Source of the DNA: Saprospiraceae bacterium
GTDB lineage: Bacteria; Bacteroidota; Bacteroidia; Chitinophagales; Saprospiraceae
Reading direction: 5' to 3'
Length of the DNA: 64,000 nucleotides
Assembly: GCA_026982695.1 (NCBI GenBank)
Contig: JALSGS010000045.1
Location: forward strand, 186,001-250,000
The stretch's first letter is position 1. The number at the start of each line of letters is the position of its first letter. The notes under the pieces were generated by a model. It did no database searches and was not told the origin of the DNA. It saw only the letters and a program-made list of their open reading frames with translations. A program made the position numbers and the translations under genes. Shown here in pieces: positions 50,927 through 57,264 of this stretch.

Positions 50927-51514
50927 TCAAAGTGCTAAAAAGCGCTGCAAAAGTCGGGTACCTGCTTCTCCTGATTTTTCCGGATGGAATTGAGTAGCAA
51001 AGAAGTTTTCGTGTTGAATCGCTGCGCTAAAAGGGTGAATGTAGTGGGTGGTTGCAATAGTCCAAGGTCCTGTTTCTACGTAATAGCTATGTACGAAATA
51101 CATCCACTGACCTTCATCAGAAGGCGCAAAGAGTGGTGCACGCACTTGCTCGAGGGTATTCCATCCCATATGAGGTACTTTTTCTCCTGCTGCTCGTGGC
51201 ACAAATTGCTTCACTTTGGCAGGCACGATGCCCAAGCAAGGCGTGTCGCCCTCTTCCGAATAGTGGCACAGCAGCTGCATACCCAGGCAAATGCCCAATA
51301 CGGGCTGGCGCAACGATCGGATCACCTCGTCGAGCTGATGGTCGCACAGCCACTGCATGGTAGCAGCAGCCTGTCCTACACCGGGAAAGATCACCTTGTC
51401 GGCTTGGCGAATCTGTTGCGCATCGGCGGTGAGCTTAGCCTCAACCTGTAAGCGTTCTAGCGCATGCATCACCGAACGGATGTTGCCAGCATTGTAGTCG
51501 ATCACTGCAATCAT
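50927..51514 (-). CDS. hisH: Imidazole glycerol phosphate synthase glutaminase subunit HisH
   Basis: HisH releases ammonia from glutamine for HisF. The 195-residue class-I glutamine amidotransferase has VIDYNAGNIRSVMHALERL, the catalytic Cys in PVLGICLGMQLLCHYSEEGD (about 77) and the His/Glu pair in FFATQFHPEKSGEAGTRLLQ. It is the last gene of the his cluster in the window; hisA, hisF and hisIE, which usually follow, are not here. Confidence 0.96.
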   Translation of the reverse strand: MIAVIDYNAGNIRSVMHALERLQVEAKLTADAQQIRQADKVIFPGVGQAAATMQWLCDHQLDEVIRSLRQPVLGICLGMQLLCHYSEEGDTPCLGIVPAKVKQFVPRAAGEKVPHMGWNTLEQVRAPLFAPSDEGQWMYFVHSYYVETGPWTIATTHYIHPFSAAIQHENFFATQFHPEKSGEAGTRLLQRFLAL

Positions 51515-51540
51515 AGTCTGTAGAGTGTGTAAAAAGATGG

Positions 51541-52680
51541 CTACAAAGTTCCTTTAGTAGAAGGCAAGGTGGGATCGTCGGCGTCGTAGCTTTTGGCCAT
51601 GCGAATTGCTCGAGCCAGCGCCTTGAAGATTGCTTCAATCTTGTGATGTTCGTTTTGGCCTGCAGCGCGAATGTGGATATTGGCCGCTGCTGTATCGGAA
51701 AGCGATTTAAAAAAGTGAAAGAACATCTCTGTTGGCATTTTGCCAATGCACTCTCTTTTGAACTCAGCCTCCCACACCAACCAGGGGCGCCCTCCGAAAT
51801 CTATGGCTACTTGTGCCAAGCAGTCGTCCATGGGCAAGCAGAAGCCATAGCGGCTGATACCGCGCTTGTCGCCCAAAGCTTGTCGCAATGCCTGCCCCAG
51901 CGCCAGTGCCGTATCTTCGATGGTGTGGTGTGCATCCACGTGTAGGTCACCTTTGGTGCGGATGCGCAAGTCGAGGCCTCCGTGCCGTGCGATCTGTTCG
52001 AGCATGTGGTCGAAAAAGCCTATGCCTGTGCGAATGTCAGCTTGTCCTGTGCCGTCCAGATCAAGCTGGACGAGCACGTCGGTCTCTTTGGTAGTGCGAT
52101 GCACTGTAGCGGTGCGCACACCTCGGCGCAGCAAGGTCCAGATATCGGCCCAAGAAGTGGTCTGCACCACTTCTCGGGCTAACCATTGGCGCAAGTCGTC
52201 AGAAGCCTCGTCGGCGCCCAGCTCGGGATCATTAGCAAGGAATATGCCCTTACAACCTAAGTTGCGCGCCAGCTCCATATCAGTGAGGCGGTCGCCGATC
52301 ACCCAAGAATGAGCCAAATCCCACTCATCGGAATTGAGGTAATGCGTCAGCAAGCCAGTACGGGGCTTGCGCGTAGGCGCTTGTTCGTGTGGGAAACTAC
52401 GATCGATCAGTATTTCGCGAAAGCGAATGCCCTCGCCTTCCAGCGTACGCACGATCAACTCGTGTATAGGCCAAAAGCTCGACTCGGGAAAAGACTCAGT
52501 ACCCAACCCATCCTGATTGGTCACCATGACCAGCTCGTAGTCAAGCATGCGCGCTACCTTGCCCAAGTATTGAAAAACCCCTGGGTAAAAGCGCAGCTTT
52601 TCAAAGCTGTCGAGCTGGTAATCGGGGGGTTCGAGCACTAAAGTACCATCTCGATCGATAAACAACAACTTGCGTGGCAT
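51541..52680 (-). CDS. hisB: Bifunctional histidinol-phosphatase / imidazoleglycerol-phosphate dehydratase HisB
   Basis: The 379-residue fusion has an N-terminal HAD phosphatase ([20 protein letters not shown] at the start, [20 protein letters not shown]) and a C-terminal IGPD domain with metal motifs [37 protein letters not shown] and [20 protein letters not shown]. It performs the seventh and ninth steps. It lies 3 bp after the hisC stop. Confidence 0.97.
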
Positions 52681-52683
52681 AGT

Positions 52684-53733
52684 CTATCTGTTTTCCACAA
52701 CCTCAATTTGTCGCAATGCTTTCAGGAGTACATCGTTTTGCTCAGGTGTGCCTACGCTGATGCGCAAGCACTCGGCACAAAGCGGCTGACGCGAGCGATC
52801 GCGTACCACGATACCGCGCGCTGCTAATGCCTCGTATATTTTGCGCGCCGCCCGCATGCGCACCAACAGGAAGTTGGCCTGTGAGGGAAATACTTTTTCT
52901 ACAAAGGGAAGCTCAGTGAGCGCTTGTGCCAGCCGCTGGCGCTCGCCTACCAATACCTCGACCACTTGCTCCACTTGCTCGGGCTGTTGCAATGCCTCAA
53001 GAGCCACTTTTTGCGTGAGCTGATTGACGTTGTACGGCGGCTTGACGGCATCGAGCCAACGGATAAGTGGTGCTTGCGCAAAAGCCATCCCCAAGCGAAT
53101 ACCGGCTAGCCCCCAAGCTTTGGACAGCGTCTGCAGTACTACCAGATTGGGGTAGGCATCGATCCAAGGTAATAGGGAGGCCGAAGGACAAAAGTCGATG
53201 TAGGCTTCATCGATCACGACGATCCCCTCGAATTGTTCCAACAGTGTGCGCACTTGCCTTTCGGCAAAAAGGTTGCCCGTGGGGTTGTTGGGGCGGCAAA
53301 GAAACAACAGGCATGCACGATGCTGCTGCGTGGCTGCCAATATGGCGGGTAGATCGAGCTCGAAATTGGTCTGTAACGGCACGTGCACCACCTCTACATC
53401 AGCGATGCCGGCACTCACTTCGTACATGCCATAAGTAGGTGGCAACGTAATAATGGCATCTTTTCGCGGCTCACAGAACAAGCGCAACAACAAATCGATA
53501 GCTTCGTCGCTACCATTAGCTGTAAAGACATGGTCGGGCCTCACCCCTTTCAGCTCGGCTAGGCGCTGACGCAAGGGCGTAGCCAGAGGGTCGGGATACC
53601 GGTTTAAGCCCGAATCGAACGGGTTTTCGTTGGCATCCAGAAAGATACGGGCATCACCCGTAAACTCATGTCGCGCCGAAGCATAAGGCTTCAGCTTCTT
53701 GATATTGTTGCGCAATAGCGTCTCAAGCTCCAT
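52684..53733 (-). CDS. hisC: Histidinol-phosphate aminotransferase HisC
   Basis: The 349-residue PLP enzyme shows IFLDANENPFDSGLNRYPDP, VFTANGSDEAIDLLLRLFCE, LCRPNNPTGNLFAERQVRTL, VVIDEAYIDFCP and PLP lysine in LQTLSKAWGLAGIRLGMAFA. ATG at 53733 gives the normal start (MELETLLRNNIKKLKPYASA) and overlaps the end of hisD by 11 bp. Confidence 0.96.
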   Translation of the reverse strand: MELETLLRNNIKKLKPYASARHEFTGDARIFLDANENPFDSGLNRYPDPLATPLRQRLAELKGVRPDHVFTANGSDEAIDLLLRLFCEPRKDAIITLPPTYGMYEVSAGIADVEVVHVPLQTNFELDLPAILAATQQHRACLLFLCRPNNPTGNLFAERQVRTLLEQFEGIVVIDEAYIDFCPSASLLPWIDAYPNLVVLQTLSKAWGLAGIRLGMAFAQAPLIRWLDAVKPPYNVNQLTQKVALEALQQPEQVEQVVEVLVGERQRLAQALTELPFVEKVFPSQANFLLVRMRAARKIYEALAARGIVVRDRSRQPLCAECLRISVGTPEQNDVLLKALRQIEVVENR

Positions 53734-55048
53734 TCGTTCCTTTTTTTGCGTGAGCCAAACGTACGGAAACAGCACGGCGATGCGCTTCTAACGCTTCAGC
53801 TTGTGCCATACGCTCCACTATGGGTCCGAGTTGCTGCAGCCCCAGCTCACTGATATGTTGAAAGGTGACCTTGCGCACGAAGCTGTCGAGCGACACACCG
53901 CTCCAGGCCCGAGCCCAGCCATTGGTTGGCAAAGTGTGGTTAGTACCCGAAGCATAGTCGCCTGCCGCCTCGGGCGTATAATGCCCCAAAAAGACGGAGC
54001 CTGCATGCCGCACCTCCTCGGCCCATGTTTCGGCTTGGTCTACAGCCAGGATGAGATGTTCAGGGGCATAGGCATTGGCGAAGTCCATTGCTTCACGTAC
54101 TGAGCTCACCAAGATGGCGCGGCTGTGTTGAAGTGCCTGGTGCGCTACTGCAGCACGCGGCAAGCTGGCCAACTGGTGGGTCAATGCCTCAAGTGTAGCC
54201 TTCAGCACAGCAGCAGAAGTAGTTACCAATACGACCTGACTGTCGGGACCATGTTCGGCCTGCGACAGTAGATCGGCAGCCACAAACTCAGGCACAGCAG
54301 AGCCGTCGGCTACTACCAACACCTCTGAAGGGCCTGCCGGCAAATCGATGGCTATGCCTTCGCGCTGTACCCATTGCTTGGCAGCAGTGACATATTGATT
54401 GCCTGGGCCAAAGATCTTGTCTACACGTGGAATACTTTGCGTGCCATAGGCCAAGGCGGCAATGGCTTGAGCTCCACCCACTCGGTATACCTCTGTCGTG
54501 CCCGCCAGCCTAGCGGCAAAAAGGATAGCAGGATGTACTCGGCCATCGGCCTGAGGCGGCGTACACAGCACGATGCGCTGACAGCCGGCCAGACGTGCAG
54601 GCACAGCCAACATCAGTACCGTACTGAACAGCGGTGCCGATCCACCCGGAATGTACAGGCCTACTCGCGATATAGGTATCGATTTGCGCCAACAGCGTAC
54701 CCCTTCCATGGGCATTACAACCTGCATGGCTTCAGCCTGAACAGCGTGAAACTGTTCGATATGATGGGCGGCATGGCCAATGGCCTCCTTCAGCTCGGCA
54801 TCGAGGGCCACTTCTGCTTCAGCAAAGGCCTGCTCGGGCACAGCCAACGCTCGGCCATCCCAACCATCGAATTGCCTATTGAAGCGCCATAAAGCCTCGT
54901 CGCCTTCTCGACGCACGGCTTCTATAATAGGATGCACTTGCACTTCGAGCTCTTCCCAGTCGATTACTGGGCGACGCACCAGTGCCGGCCACTGGTCGCG
55001 CGAAGGGTAATGCATCACCTGAACGTGAATGGGTGTAGCGGTATTCAT
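53723..55048 (-). CDS. hisD: Histidinol dehydrogenase HisD
   Basis: The 441-residue NAD enzyme performs the last two oxidations of the pathway. Motifs include PISRVGLYIPGGSAPLFSTV, GGAQAIAALAYGTQSIPRVD, KIFGPGNQYVTAAKQWVQRE, DLLSQAEHGPDSQVVLVTTS (zinc/catalytic Glu-His) and YAPEHLILAVDQAETWAEEV. Start overlaps the hisG stop by 1 bp (TAATG). Confidence 0.97.
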   Translation of the reverse strand: MNTATPIHVQVMHYPSRDQWPALVRRPVIDWEELEVQVHPIIEAVRREGDEALWRFNRQFDGWDGRALAVPEQAFAEAEVALDAELKEAIGHAAHHIEQFHAVQAEAMQVVMPMEGVRCWRKSIPISRVGLYIPGGSAPLFSTVLMLAVPARLAGCQRIVLCTPPQADGRVHPAILFAARLAGTTEVYRVGGAQAIAALAYGTQSIPRVDKIFGPGNQYVTAAKQWVQREGIAIDLPAGPSEVLVVADGSAVPEFVAADLLSQAEHGPDSQVVLVTTSAAVLKATLEALTHQLASLPRAAVAHQALQHSRAILVSSVREAMDFANAYAPEHLILAVDQAETWAEEVRHAGSVFLGHYTPEAAGDYASGTNHTLPTNGWARAWSGVSLDSFVRKVTFQHISELGLQQLGPIVERMAQAEALEAHRRAVSVRLAHAKKGTNGA

Positions 55049-55914
55049 TATCGAATCATTTTTTCAATGGGCACGACCAAAATACCCTGAGCACCTACTG
55101 CCTTGAGCTCATCGATGACCTCCCAAAACTCGTCTTCATTGATGACCGAGTGCAGTGCACTCCAGCCAGCTTCTGCCAGAGGCACTACAGTGGGGCTTTT
55201 CATGCCTGGCAAAATGCGACTGATAGCTTCAATGCGGTCGTTAGGCGCATTGAGCACTACGTATTTGCTACGCGCAGCGCGCTGCACCGCATCAATGCGA
55301 AAGAGCAGTTTGTCGAGCAAGGCTTGTTTGCCTTTTGACAAATAAGGATTGGCCACCAAGGTGGCTTCCGAGTACATGATCACTTCCACCTCTTTAAGGC
55401 CATTGCTAAACAGTGTGGTGCCCGAGCTGACCAAGTCCGCGATGGCATCAGCCAAGCCAATATTAGGCGCAATCTCCACCGACCCACTGATGGTATGCAC
55501 TTCAGCATCAATATCATGAGCCTGGAGGAAACGCTTCAGGAGGCGCGGATAGGAGGTAGCTATCTTGCGCCCCTCAAACCATGTCAAACCATCGTAGGCC
55601 ACTGCCTTAGGCACAGCTAGGCTTAGGCGGCAACTGCCAAAGCCCAAAGGGCGCAATTCCTCTACCTTACAGGCTGCTTCAGCTACCACGTTCTGGCCCA
55701 CAATACCCACATCAGCAGTGCCATCAGCTACGTATTGCGGGATGTCGTCGTCGCGCAGATACAACACTTCGAGAGGGAAGTTGTGAGCACGCGCTATGAG
55801 GGCATGCTTGCCATTCTGCACCGAGATGCCACACTCGCGCAGCAGCTGCCGGCTGTCATCGCTCAGCCGTCCCGATTTCTGAATGGCGATCTTGAGTGGT
55901 TGGTCATGCGTCAT
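55048..55914 (-). CDS. hisG: ATP phosphoribosyltransferase HisG, long form
   Basis: HisG catalyses the first, feedback-controlled step. The 288-residue length and C-terminal ACT-like domain (SPTVVPLAEAGWSALHSVIN; VGAQGILVVPIEKMIR) mark the long form, which needs no HisZ. N-terminal motifs: LKIAIQKSGRLSDDSRQLLR, ADVGIVGQNVVAE, and PRPP loop ISGSVEIAPNIGLADAIADL. ATG at 55914 (MTHDQPLKIAIQ) was chosen because it lies just after the attenuator terminator; the longer open frame would run through that hairpin. Confidence 0.96.
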   Translation of the reverse strand: MTHDQPLKIAIQKSGRLSDDSRQLLRECGISVQNGKHALIARAHNFPLEVLYLRDDDIPQYVADGTADVGIVGQNVVAEAACKVEELRPLGFGSCRLSLAVPKAVAYDGLTWFEGRKIATSYPRLLKRFLQAHDIDAEVHTISGSVEIAPNIGLADAIADLVSSGTTLFSNGLKEVEVIMYSEATLVANPYLSKGKQALLDKLLFRIDAVQRAARSKYVVLNAPNDRIEAISRILPGMKSPTVVPLAEAGWSALHSVINEDEFWEVIDELKAVGAQGILVVPIEKMIR

Positions 55915-55943
55915 GTAGTCAGTTTGAAATTGAATGTGAGCAA

Positions 55944-55982
55944 ACAAAAAAAGAGGTTTACCGGGCAAGTGGTAAACCTCTT
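55944..55982 (-). terminator. Attenuator terminator of the his operon
   Basis: On the minus strand AAGAGGTTTACC-acttgccc-GGTAAACCTCTT is a perfect 12-bp stem followed by a run of T (seven T in total with the stem end), then GTTTG. It lies 30 bp after the leader ORF stop and 30 bp before the hisG start. The loop and 5' arm (CCACTTGCCC, plus 55963-55972) can instead pair over 10 bp, with one G-U, with GGGCAGGTGG at the end of the leader ORF (plus 56016-56025). That pairing would block the terminator. Confidence 0.88.
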
Positions 55983-56012
55983 TTTCCAATAAAGGTACAA
56001 CGCGCAAACGCC

Positions 56013-56072
56013 TCACCACCTGCCCTTCGGGCTAGCATGAACATGGTGATGATGGCGATGCGTACGATTCAT
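56013..56072 (-). CDS. hisL: His-operon leader peptide
   Basis: The 19-codon ORF (ATG 56072, TGA at 56013-56015) encodes MNRTHRHHHHVHASPKGRW, with six histidine codons, four of them consecutive. This is the hallmark of a ribosome-mediated attenuator leader. If charged tRNA-His is scarce the ribosome stalls at codons 5-12 and leaves the last codons free to form the antiterminator. If it reads on to the stop it covers them and the terminator forms. A small hairpin GCCC-gaa-GGGC within codons 14-17 could hold the same segment when no ribosome is present. ATG starts 26 nt after the tRNA-Phe 3' end. Confidence 0.88.
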   Translation of the reverse strand: MNRTHRHHHHVHASPKGRW

Positions 56073-56098
56073 GTCTGCGTATGTATGGGCAAAAAATG

Positions 56099-56171
56099 TG
56101 GTACGGGGCGGAATCGAACCGCCGACACCAGGATTTTCAGTCCTGTGCTCTACCAACTGAGCTACCGTACC
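56099..56171 (-). tRNA. tRNA-Phe (GAA)
   Basis: The minus strand reads GGTACGGTAGCTCAGTTGG, then the anticodon arm CAGGACTGAAAATCCTG (anticodon GAA), TTCGATTC in the T arm and CCGTACC closing the 7-bp acceptor stem, with A as discriminator. CCA is not encoded. Folding is complete. The his leader ORF starts 26 nt downstream, too close for a separate normal promoter between them. Confidence 0.97.
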
Positions 56172-56196
56172 TCAAAGCGCGTTTCAAAATCGGTGG

Positions 56197-56226
56197 CAAA
56201 TTTATAGCTATTTTCCGATTTAACAA
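56197..56226 (-). promoter_or_regulatory. Predicted promoter of tRNA-Phe and the his operon
   Basis: On the minus strand TTG (plus 56224-56226), 19-bp spacing and TAAATTTG (plus 56197-56204) match the Bacteroidota consensus exactly. The predicted start is about 20 nt before the tRNA. Confidence 0.7.
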
Positions 56227-56406
56227 TCTACCCTACCATTTTTTTCGTCCTAGCATACTTTAGGAGCACACATGCCAATCTGCGTTTTTGTTCTATATTC
56301 AGAGAATTGGCAAGTTAGGTAAAACGATTGTGCTGCATACAAACAAGCAACTCACCTCGACTCAGAATCGCTACATTCGCCTATCAAACCAATCTACACA
56401 TAATAG

Positions 56407-57264
56407 ATGGCTGCACGACTACTCGCTTTACCCTTTATTTTAGCCTCAGCAATCTTACTGTGGTTGGCCTTTGAGCGCAGTGAAGATTACGCCTGGGGGC
56501 TAGCCATTACCTTGCCTGTATTGGCAGTCATTTACATTCTTTCCAACGAAATCAACTGGTGGTGGTATCAGAAGCATCCCCCTGATCTACCAAGCAAAGT
56601 ACGCGCTATGCTGGCCATGCAACATGCATGGTACCAAAACCTTCCGCTCGACCTTAAAGCGCGTTTCCGACACAGAGTAGCCCTCATGATGCAGGCCACC
56701 GACTTTATTCCGCGCATACCGCTTGAAGAAGTGCCTCCCGACCTGAAAGCACTTTCGGTAGCAGGTGCCGTGCAACTCACTTTGGGGCTGGAAGAATGGC
56801 TCATGCCACCATACGAACACGTGGTGATATACACCCATCCATTTCCTTCGCCCCAATACCCAGATAGGTTACACATTTCCGAGATAGAAGACGAAGATGG
56901 TACCTTGCTATTCAGTGCGCCTCACCTGGTTAAAGGGTTTATGGAGCCCCATCGATATTTTCACATTGGCCTTTACGAGTGGAGCCGAGCATGGCGGCGC
57001 ACGCATCCCAAAGTGCAGTTTCCCGACCTTGTACCTCATTTTTCCGAAAAGCTGGAAAAAATCAGTGGTGTACCCAGTAGCCGATTGCTGGAATACATGG
57101 GCTTGCCCGAAGTAGATTGGCTATCGGTAGCCATAGTGTGGTACTTTACCTTCCCCGATTCATTTGCTGCCGAACTGCCGCAAATGGCACAAGCATTTGC
57201 CAATATTTTCCAGTGCCGCAATTTTGTTGGCTTGTCTCTTAATCAGTCGATAGGCCATCCATAA
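56407..57264 (+). CDS. MtfA-like protein lacking the zinc-peptidase motif
   Basis: The 285-residue protein has two N-terminal membrane helices (LLALPFILASAILLWLAFER; AITLPVLAVIYILSNEINWW) and a domain like MtfA, a zinc peptidase (M90) known to bind the Mlc repressor. Family-like segments are LDLKARFRHRVALMMQATDF, AGAVQLTLGLEEW and HVVIYTHPFPSPQYPDR. MtfA proteins carry HExxH in a context like GLHEFAHALD. Here the equivalent stretch reads HIGLYEWSRAWRRTHP, without HExxH. It is therefore probably not a peptidase and may be a structural or binding relative. Its 3' end overlaps the convergent gene by 22 bp. Confidence 0.72.
   Translation: MAARLLALPFILASAILLWLAFERSEDYAWGLAITLPVLAVIYILSNEINWWWYQKHPPDLPSKVRAMLAMQHAWYQNLPLDLKARFRHRVALMMQATDFIPRIPLEEVPPDLKALSVAGAVQLTLGLEEWLMPPYEHVVIYTHPFPSPQYPDRLHISEIEDEDGTLLFSAPHLVKGFMEPHRYFHIGLYEWSRAWRRTHPKVQFPDLVPHFSEKLEKISGVPSSRLLEYMGLPEVDWLSVAIVWYFTFPDSFAAELPQMAQAFANIFQCRNFVGLSLNQSIGHP

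Follow-up and report, generated by a model that had tools for sequence, protein, structure and literature searches.

A histidine-rich leader reading frame and a predicted RNA switch precede the his genes in much of the Bacteroidota. For the locus described here, which lies in a window of 64,000 nucleotides (the whole stretch of DNA that was analysed) from a Saprospiraceae bacterium, the best explanation, and one that we regard as very probable, is a single unit extending from before a tRNA-Phe gene through leader and terminator into hisGDCBH, with ribosome-mediated attenuation. Comparison between genomes establishes, at the level of sequence, the leader, the predicted terminator, two competing pairings and the fusion to the tRNA gene. 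A sequence-resolved His attenuator recurs across the class of the source genome and partly beyond it, and in its fused form it brings together a tRNA gene that appears to be single-copy and the switch of an amino-acid pathway unrelated to it.

Architecture of the his locus

All features lie on the minus strand of the window. The long-form hisG gene (55048..55914, start MTHDQPLK; NCBIfam TIGR00070 and TIGR03455 above cut-off) is the first of a same-strand run hisGDCBH, in which hisD, hisC, the bifunctional hisB and hisH occupy 50927..55048 (TIGR00069, TIGR01141, NF003937 and TIGR01855, likewise above cut-off). As part of the explanation given above, taken as a whole, this is with high probability the gene run that the His attenuator regulates. 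The original prediction had placed a His-rich leader with six His codons before hisG, and translation of 56072-56013 indeed yields MNRTHRHHHHVHASPKGRW followed by a stop codon; the frame (56013..56072) is kept in relatives as a His-rich short ORF. The terminator with a T-tract that was expected after the leader is recovered in the RNA fold as a 17-bp stem with an 8-nt loop (55987-55946), the stem including inner pairs as well as A-U pairs that reach into the T-tract. A simple terminator scan of 55700-56500 reported none; the T-tract, being part of the paired stem, probably escaped it. A combined sigma-70 and terminator scan, which is unsuited to Bacteroidota promoters, returned one promoter-like site on the opposite strand.

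Absent from the original prediction is a tRNA-Phe(GAA) gene (56098..56171; ARAGORN, Rfam RF00005) directly upstream of the leader on the same strand, 25 nt separating its 3' end from the leader ATG. A probable Bacteroidota sigma-A -7 box, TAAATTTG (56197..56204, a match to TAnnTTTG), lies 25 nt upstream of the tRNA gene, and a TTG located 19 nt further upstream (56226-56224) is a candidate -33 element.

Occurrence of the leader and the terminator

Regions upstream of hisG came from searches among relatives, where 28 of 60 genomes have the gene, in the family (122 of 199), in the class (127 of 295) and among named records. Automatically returned loci were combined with 60 from the family and 80 from the class, mostly the better matches, so that the weakest and partial ones are under-represented. 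The resulting 302 loci (L004-L305) were reduced to 291 by removal of 8 that could not be oriented and 3 with too little upstream DNA, and then to 268 distinct regions by removal of duplicates and of short or N-rich rows.

A strict leader, defined as at least four His within eight codons of a short ORF, is present in 227 of the 268 regions, and a relaxed test adds 24 to give 251 of 268, while dinucleotide shuffles yield 9/2680 strict and 68/2680 relaxed leaders; 17 of the 268 regions have no leader upstream of hisG by either test. Strict leaders, typically 19 residues long with 5 His (medians), occur in 22/28 regions of the order set, 62/71 of the family set, 74/93 of the class set and 69/76 of the named records, the last drawn from the best 80 of 593 stretches. 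These records include Chitinophaga japonensis, Taibaiella chishuiensis, Pontibacter ruber, Maribellus luteus, Myroides odoratimimus, Algoriphagus kandeliae and Winogradskyella bathintestinalis. The recurrence in relatives of the His-rich leader and, as described below, of both competing stems, which the original prediction proposed to look for by alignment, is thus borne out. Within the window itself, two of the mechanical ORFs of 150 aa or more, 50 in all, had a strict hit upstream, hisG and an ORF at + 32018; the latter is a TTG-start mechanical ORF, and the His-rich short ORF before it is probably due to chance.

Outside the class, 24 regions derived from a phylum-wide search (hisG in 128 of 148 genomes) were read: among the 15 with a close type of HisG, 8 carry a strict and 1 a relaxed leader, and among the 9 with a distant HisG there is none. 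It seems from this small sample that the His switch goes with the close type of HisG. Three loci titled Pyrinomonadaceae or Acidobacteria (L045, L082, L106) have a His leader and a terminator together with a HisG of the close type, such that the operon may have been transferred together with its switch, or the assemblies may be mislabelled. Eight loci from Pontibacter, Algoriphagus and Cyclobacteriaceae records (L056, L057, L069, L094-L096, L103, L105) have leaders that finish with HHFHHSS or HHIHHSS, placing the His run at the extreme end; this is perhaps a variant layout, and one of its members, L094, has no terminator by the test given next.

Of the 251 leader-bearing regions, 228 have a terminator (dG <= -8 plus a T-tract) after the leader stop and before hisG, compared with 129/502 in shuffles, and 23 lack one by this test. 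The distance from the leader stop to the terminator 5' arm has a median of 28 nt (quartiles 22-35). Four loci of the family set (L300-L303) all have strict His leaders, and L303 is the one among them that passes the terminator test; another stop signal or translational control is possible there.

Fusion to the tRNA-Phe gene

Thirty-seven of the 268 regions have a tRNA gene upstream (within 600 nt), and in all 37 it is a same-strand tRNA-Phe(GAA). At 24 of the loci that have a leader, 0-26 nt separate it from the tRNA; these loci, hereafter called fused, all belong to the family of the source bacterium. With the tRNA gene immediately upstream, a promoter would have no visible space ahead of the leader, and the distribution of the TAnnTTTG motif agrees with this: it is found within 100 nt before the tRNA in 24/24 fused loci (shuffles 25/480) and within 100 nt before the leader in 0/24 (shuffles 10/480). 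Judged by the motif, the fused loci hence show what characterizes a tRNA-mRNA unit, i.e. (i) a close tRNA gene, (ii) on the same strand, (iii) with a promoter before the tRNA only, and a terminator follows in 24/24. tRNA-Phe, leader and hisGDCBH thus appear to share one transcript; a transcription start within the tRNA-Phe gene may also be considered.

Other loci speak for the alternative that attenuation is real and that the leader has a start of its own, tRNA-Phe and his being merely adjacent. At 11 loci tRNA-Phe lies 44-209 nt from the leader, several of them having, on reading, a hairpin and T-tract of their own in the gap, and at loci without a tRNA the motif occurs within 100 nt before the leader in 154/215 (shuffles 380/4300). 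Given the narrow gap and the placement of the motif in the 24 fused loci, we consider this alternative unlikely for the fused arrangement and prefer the single unit starting before tRNA-Phe. The spacing of the motif adds to this picture. The distance from the end of the box to the leader ATG in loci without tRNA has a median of 15.5 nt (quartiles 8-20, n=154), and the motif has been placed at -12 to -5 (PMC9723704), from which a leader 5' UTR of ~11 nt is predicted for such loci. This is close to the median of 13 nt from tRNA to ATG in the fused loci, and it is thus tempting to speculate that tRNA processing replaced the promoter.

In the 24 fused genomes, some of which are incomplete, nothing but the copy at his matches the window's tRNA-Phe at 87% identity or more; in two of the 24 this match spans 55 of 74 nt. 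Second in rank come tRNA-Met, Thr, Lys or His and, in one case, a position at the end of a contig that holds no tRNA; in four of the 24 fused genomes no second tRNA-Phe match was found. The source genome, rated 100% complete and with 39 tRNA matches (anticodons read for part of them), has other matches to tRNA-Phe of at most 81% identity over at most 60 nt, the two best being tRNA-Met. The gene at his is apparently this genome's only tRNA-Phe gene, and the his attenuator is probably the terminator of its transcript. A more far-reaching proposal, namely that a sole tRNA-Phe gene without a terminator of its own has its transcript ended by the attenuator, that its promoter sets the supply of leader, and that its 3' processing makes the leader 5' end, seems to us about evenly balanced between right and wrong. 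A tree of 44 HisG proteins, which has unsettled bootstrap support and is not a species tree, places 13 fused rows in two regions and forces at least two changes.

If the attenuator ends the tRNA transcript, one may ask whether the hairpin is a plain tRNA-Phe terminator and the His-rich ORF accidental. The hairpin is in fact the first terminator after the tRNA and, by eye, locus L090 has upstream of hisG a tRNA-Phe directly followed by a similar, attenuator-like terminator; no His leader was found there, and its loss may have left a plain tRNA terminator. Yet 216 loci have the leader and no tRNA in the upstream stretch, leaders far exceed the shuffles, and the pairing between leader end and terminator co-varies (see below), so that this explanation is very improbable.

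Competing pairings and their covariation

The window's sequence combines the elements of a classic attenuator: (i) a leader with tandem codons, (ii) a terminator, (iii) an antiterminator on the terminator 5' arm, and (iv) a sequestering helix that a ribosome can break. Region 1 (56045..56062) consists of Thr, His, Arg and His codons; region 2 (56003..56025) comprises the leader end and stop codon, its segment 56025-56013 being the predicted antiterminator 5' strand; region 3 (55963..55981) comprises the antiterminator 3' strand (55975-55963), assigned from fold and covariation, and the partner AGAGGU (55981-55976) of a helper strand ACCUUU (55991..55996) that is predicted from the window's sequence only. 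Region 3 sits inside the 5' arm and loop of the his terminator, the helix of regions 3 and 4 (55946..55987). The ribosome-free minimum free energy of the leader region is -51.6 kcal/mol (z = -5.16; 0/200 shuffles as stable), and in this fold the strand 56062-56045 pairs with 56020-56003 while the terminator is also formed. In the model, the main sequestering strand is the His-codon run itself. The original prediction had let a GCCC/GGGC hairpin hold the leader end; this hairpin is present in the same fold (56032-56029 with 56025-56022) as a minor part of it. Sequestration by that hairpin alone was rejected: it has 4 bp only and is nested within the His-codon helix.

The segments GGGCAGGTGG (56025-56016) and CCACTTGCCC (55972-55963), proposed earlier as a 10-bp antiterminator, do pair over 10 bp with one G-U, and this account was correct as far as it went. 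With the first 46 nt masked to represent a ribosome stalled on the His codons, nascent RNA up to the end of the terminator loop folds into an antiterminator (-27.5 kcal/mol) in which the helix extends to 13 bp (56025-56013 with 55975-55963) and is joined by a 6-bp helper helix (55996-55991 with 55981-55976). An antiterminator that touches the terminator tip only was therefore discarded, the nascent fold also tying up AGAGGU of the 5' arm. With nt 1-72 masked, corresponding to a ribosome at the stop codon, the terminator alone is left. In the complete RNA with nt 1-46 masked, the terminator is favoured over the antiterminator at equilibrium, which implies that the antiterminator would have to act kinetically, before the terminator 3' arm is made.

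Pairing across species was assessed on the 228 loci with leader and terminator, 4 of which were dropped as having too short a region 2, and the remaining 224 were thinned to 161. Region 2 pairs with its own terminator arm at a mean of -13.7 kcal/mol, compared with -10.3 (sd 0.21) when arms are swapped between species, and 0/2000 permutations were as good (the best reaching -11.1 kcal/mol), figures to be read with the fact that the sets used here overlap in ancestry and that shuffles and permutations ignore relatedness. A control segment of equal length from before the leader gave no signal (own -6.88, swapped -6.84). The effect is seen in all six subgroups, at 0/2000 in five and at 24/2000 in the weakest, the loci with a separate tRNA (n=6). 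Likewise, region 1 pairs with region 2 at -16.9 kcal/mol for own and -13.4 (sd 0.24) for swapped partners in the 161 loci. When region 2 is not preset, the best partner of the terminator arm falls at a median of -14 to +4 around the leader stop and overlaps the footprint of a ribosome at the stop codon in 89%; at the median, half of the antiterminator 5' strand, not all of it, is also used by the sequestering helix.

Covariation was examined in 22 family sequences chosen for a common terminator motif (18 distinct rows; loops left-justified for counting). Compensatory changes that keep the pairing are found at columns 29, 31, 32, 33, 35 and 38 of region 2, and loop-side pairs are formed in 0.86 of cells as compared with 0.759 when arms are permuted, a value that 0/5000 permutations reached. 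A test anchored on leaders ending in Trp, for which the anchor is present in 15 of 18, was positive but weak: a mean of 3.1 contiguous pairs for own and 1.7 for swapped partners, with about half of the 18 showing none or one. A conserved TGGTG core at the leader end is read in frame 0 in 14 of the 22 sequences, in frame 2 in 4 and in frame 1 in 2, and lies past the stop in 2; since it is read in three frames, it is the RNA rather than the end of the peptide that is conserved. This bears directly on the thought that the His-rich ORF encodes a functional small protein, e.g. a metal-binding one, for which its many His (27% of leader residues after the start) would speak. Apart from the shifting frame of the core, residues outside the His run vary, and the ORF precedes hisG and ends in the antiterminator strand; such a function is hardly to be expected.

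Proposed mechanism

Attenuation in enterobacterial his operons involves a leader peptide, competing helices and a terminator. That the same kind of ribosome-mediated control operates here, as the original prediction held, is well supported by the co-varying leader, terminator and antiterminator, while the layout with tRNA-Phe upstream is unlike the enterobacterial one. In the mechanism that we favour, RNA polymerase would make tRNA-Phe first; once the tRNA 3' end is processed, a leader mRNA with a 5' UTR of ~12-25 nt would remain, on which a ribosome would translate the His leader. With ample His-tRNA the ribosome would reach the stop codon and cover region 2, the terminator would form, and the product would be little more than tRNA-Phe, with the attenuator serving as its terminator. 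With scarce His-tRNA the ribosome would stall in the His codons of region 1 and free region 2, which could then pair with the emerging terminator 5' arm such that transcription continues into the his genes. If there were no translation, the His-codon helix would hold region 2 and lead to termination.

This scheme presupposes that ribosome and polymerase are coupled in Bacteroidota. Attenuation needs a ribosome close behind RNA polymerase, and the switch hence makes transcription-translation coupling testable in Bacteroidota, bacteria that do not rely on Shine-Dalgarno signals. It also raises the question of how a steady supply of tRNA-Phe is kept while histidine opens and closes the terminator of its gene. 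A transcription unit in which a tRNA gene heads a protein operon is known from metY-nusA of E. coli; the present case differs in that the first terminator after the tRNA is the attenuator of another amino acid's pathway.

Relation to known systems

At gathering scores, Rfam matches in the window and in 18 source sequences are to tRNA only, with none to the T-box covariance model, so that control by a T-box or another metabolite-sensing RNA, as T-boxes serve his genes in Firmicutes and Actinobacteria (PMC9413887), may be set aside as negligible. The enterobacterial His_leader family (RF00514) likewise does not reach its gathering cut-off of 49 bits in the window or the 18 sources. A lax search of 10 sources (E up to 5) gave 16 matches, including sub-threshold matches to RF00514 at the leader in L107 (36.5 bits) and L078 (32.9 bits), sub-threshold Phe_leader and Thr_leader in L062, and chance-like families; RF00514 gave no match in L001, the locus of the window's leader. 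No Rfam family thus matched the attenuator at its cut-off in the sources scanned. Lopatovskaya 2010, on attenuation in bacteria, may contain further prior descriptions.

The enterobacterial his attenuator described in the portions of PMC9413887 on this topic is alike in having a leader with His codons, three competing helices and a terminator before hisG. In the present system, by contrast, the main sequestering strand is made up of the His codons, which usually form a shorter run, and a tRNA gene is fused upstream. The same source reports his attenuators in Proteobacteria and new ones in Firmicutes; the latter resemble the present leaders in their three to five consecutive His codons and their terminator and antiterminator, but belong to another phylum, and its passages on them mention no tRNA fusion. 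Attenuation is described for enterobacteria in a treatment of the his genes of this superphylum, as far as its relevant part goes (PMC8305728), and leader-peptide-like small ORFs are mentioned in general for B. thetaiotaomicron in the corresponding part of PMC7366714.

Also close to our finding is a 2021 study of Flavobacterium (PMC9723704), whose main text describes, in genera of Flavobacteriaceae, a structured 5' element at hisG that is conserved and has no Rfam hit, and notes more generally that amino-acid operons show signs of control by leader-peptide attenuation. Gene, phylum and a conserved 5' structure are the same, and the main-text account of hisG gives, in the passages concerned, no leader sequence, antiterminator or tRNA. 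The earlier suggestion that the attenuator may be new for the phylum was therefore too strong, its presence there being hinted at in that study (PMC9723704), whereas its wide occurrence, the three helices resolved here and the fusion with tRNA-Phe, on top of a known kind of attenuator, do not appear in the literature searched. For the tRNA-Phe/his fusion, no description was found in the open-licence PMC literature, a body to which subscription papers and supplements mostly do not belong.

Other amino-acid operons of the source genome

Among other amino-acid operons of the same genome, a relative of ilvB has no convincing leader upstream. For tryptophan, a cis-regulatory RNA of an amino-acid operon in Bacteroidetes has been described as the Bacteroid-trp motif (Rfam RF01692; PMC2864571, in the section dealing with it), which concerns Trp and not His. 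On contig C21 of the source genome (locus L353, upstream of 150487), a trpE-like gene, whose best match, TIGR00564, is below its cut-off, is preceded by the short ORF MNFTFVHTNNWWWPRPSPTCRVR; this ORF contains three Trp codons in tandem and, on reading, is followed by a hairpin with a T-rich tail. This region is a probable trp attenuator and, with such a leader besides that of his, the source organism probably uses attenuation more than once.
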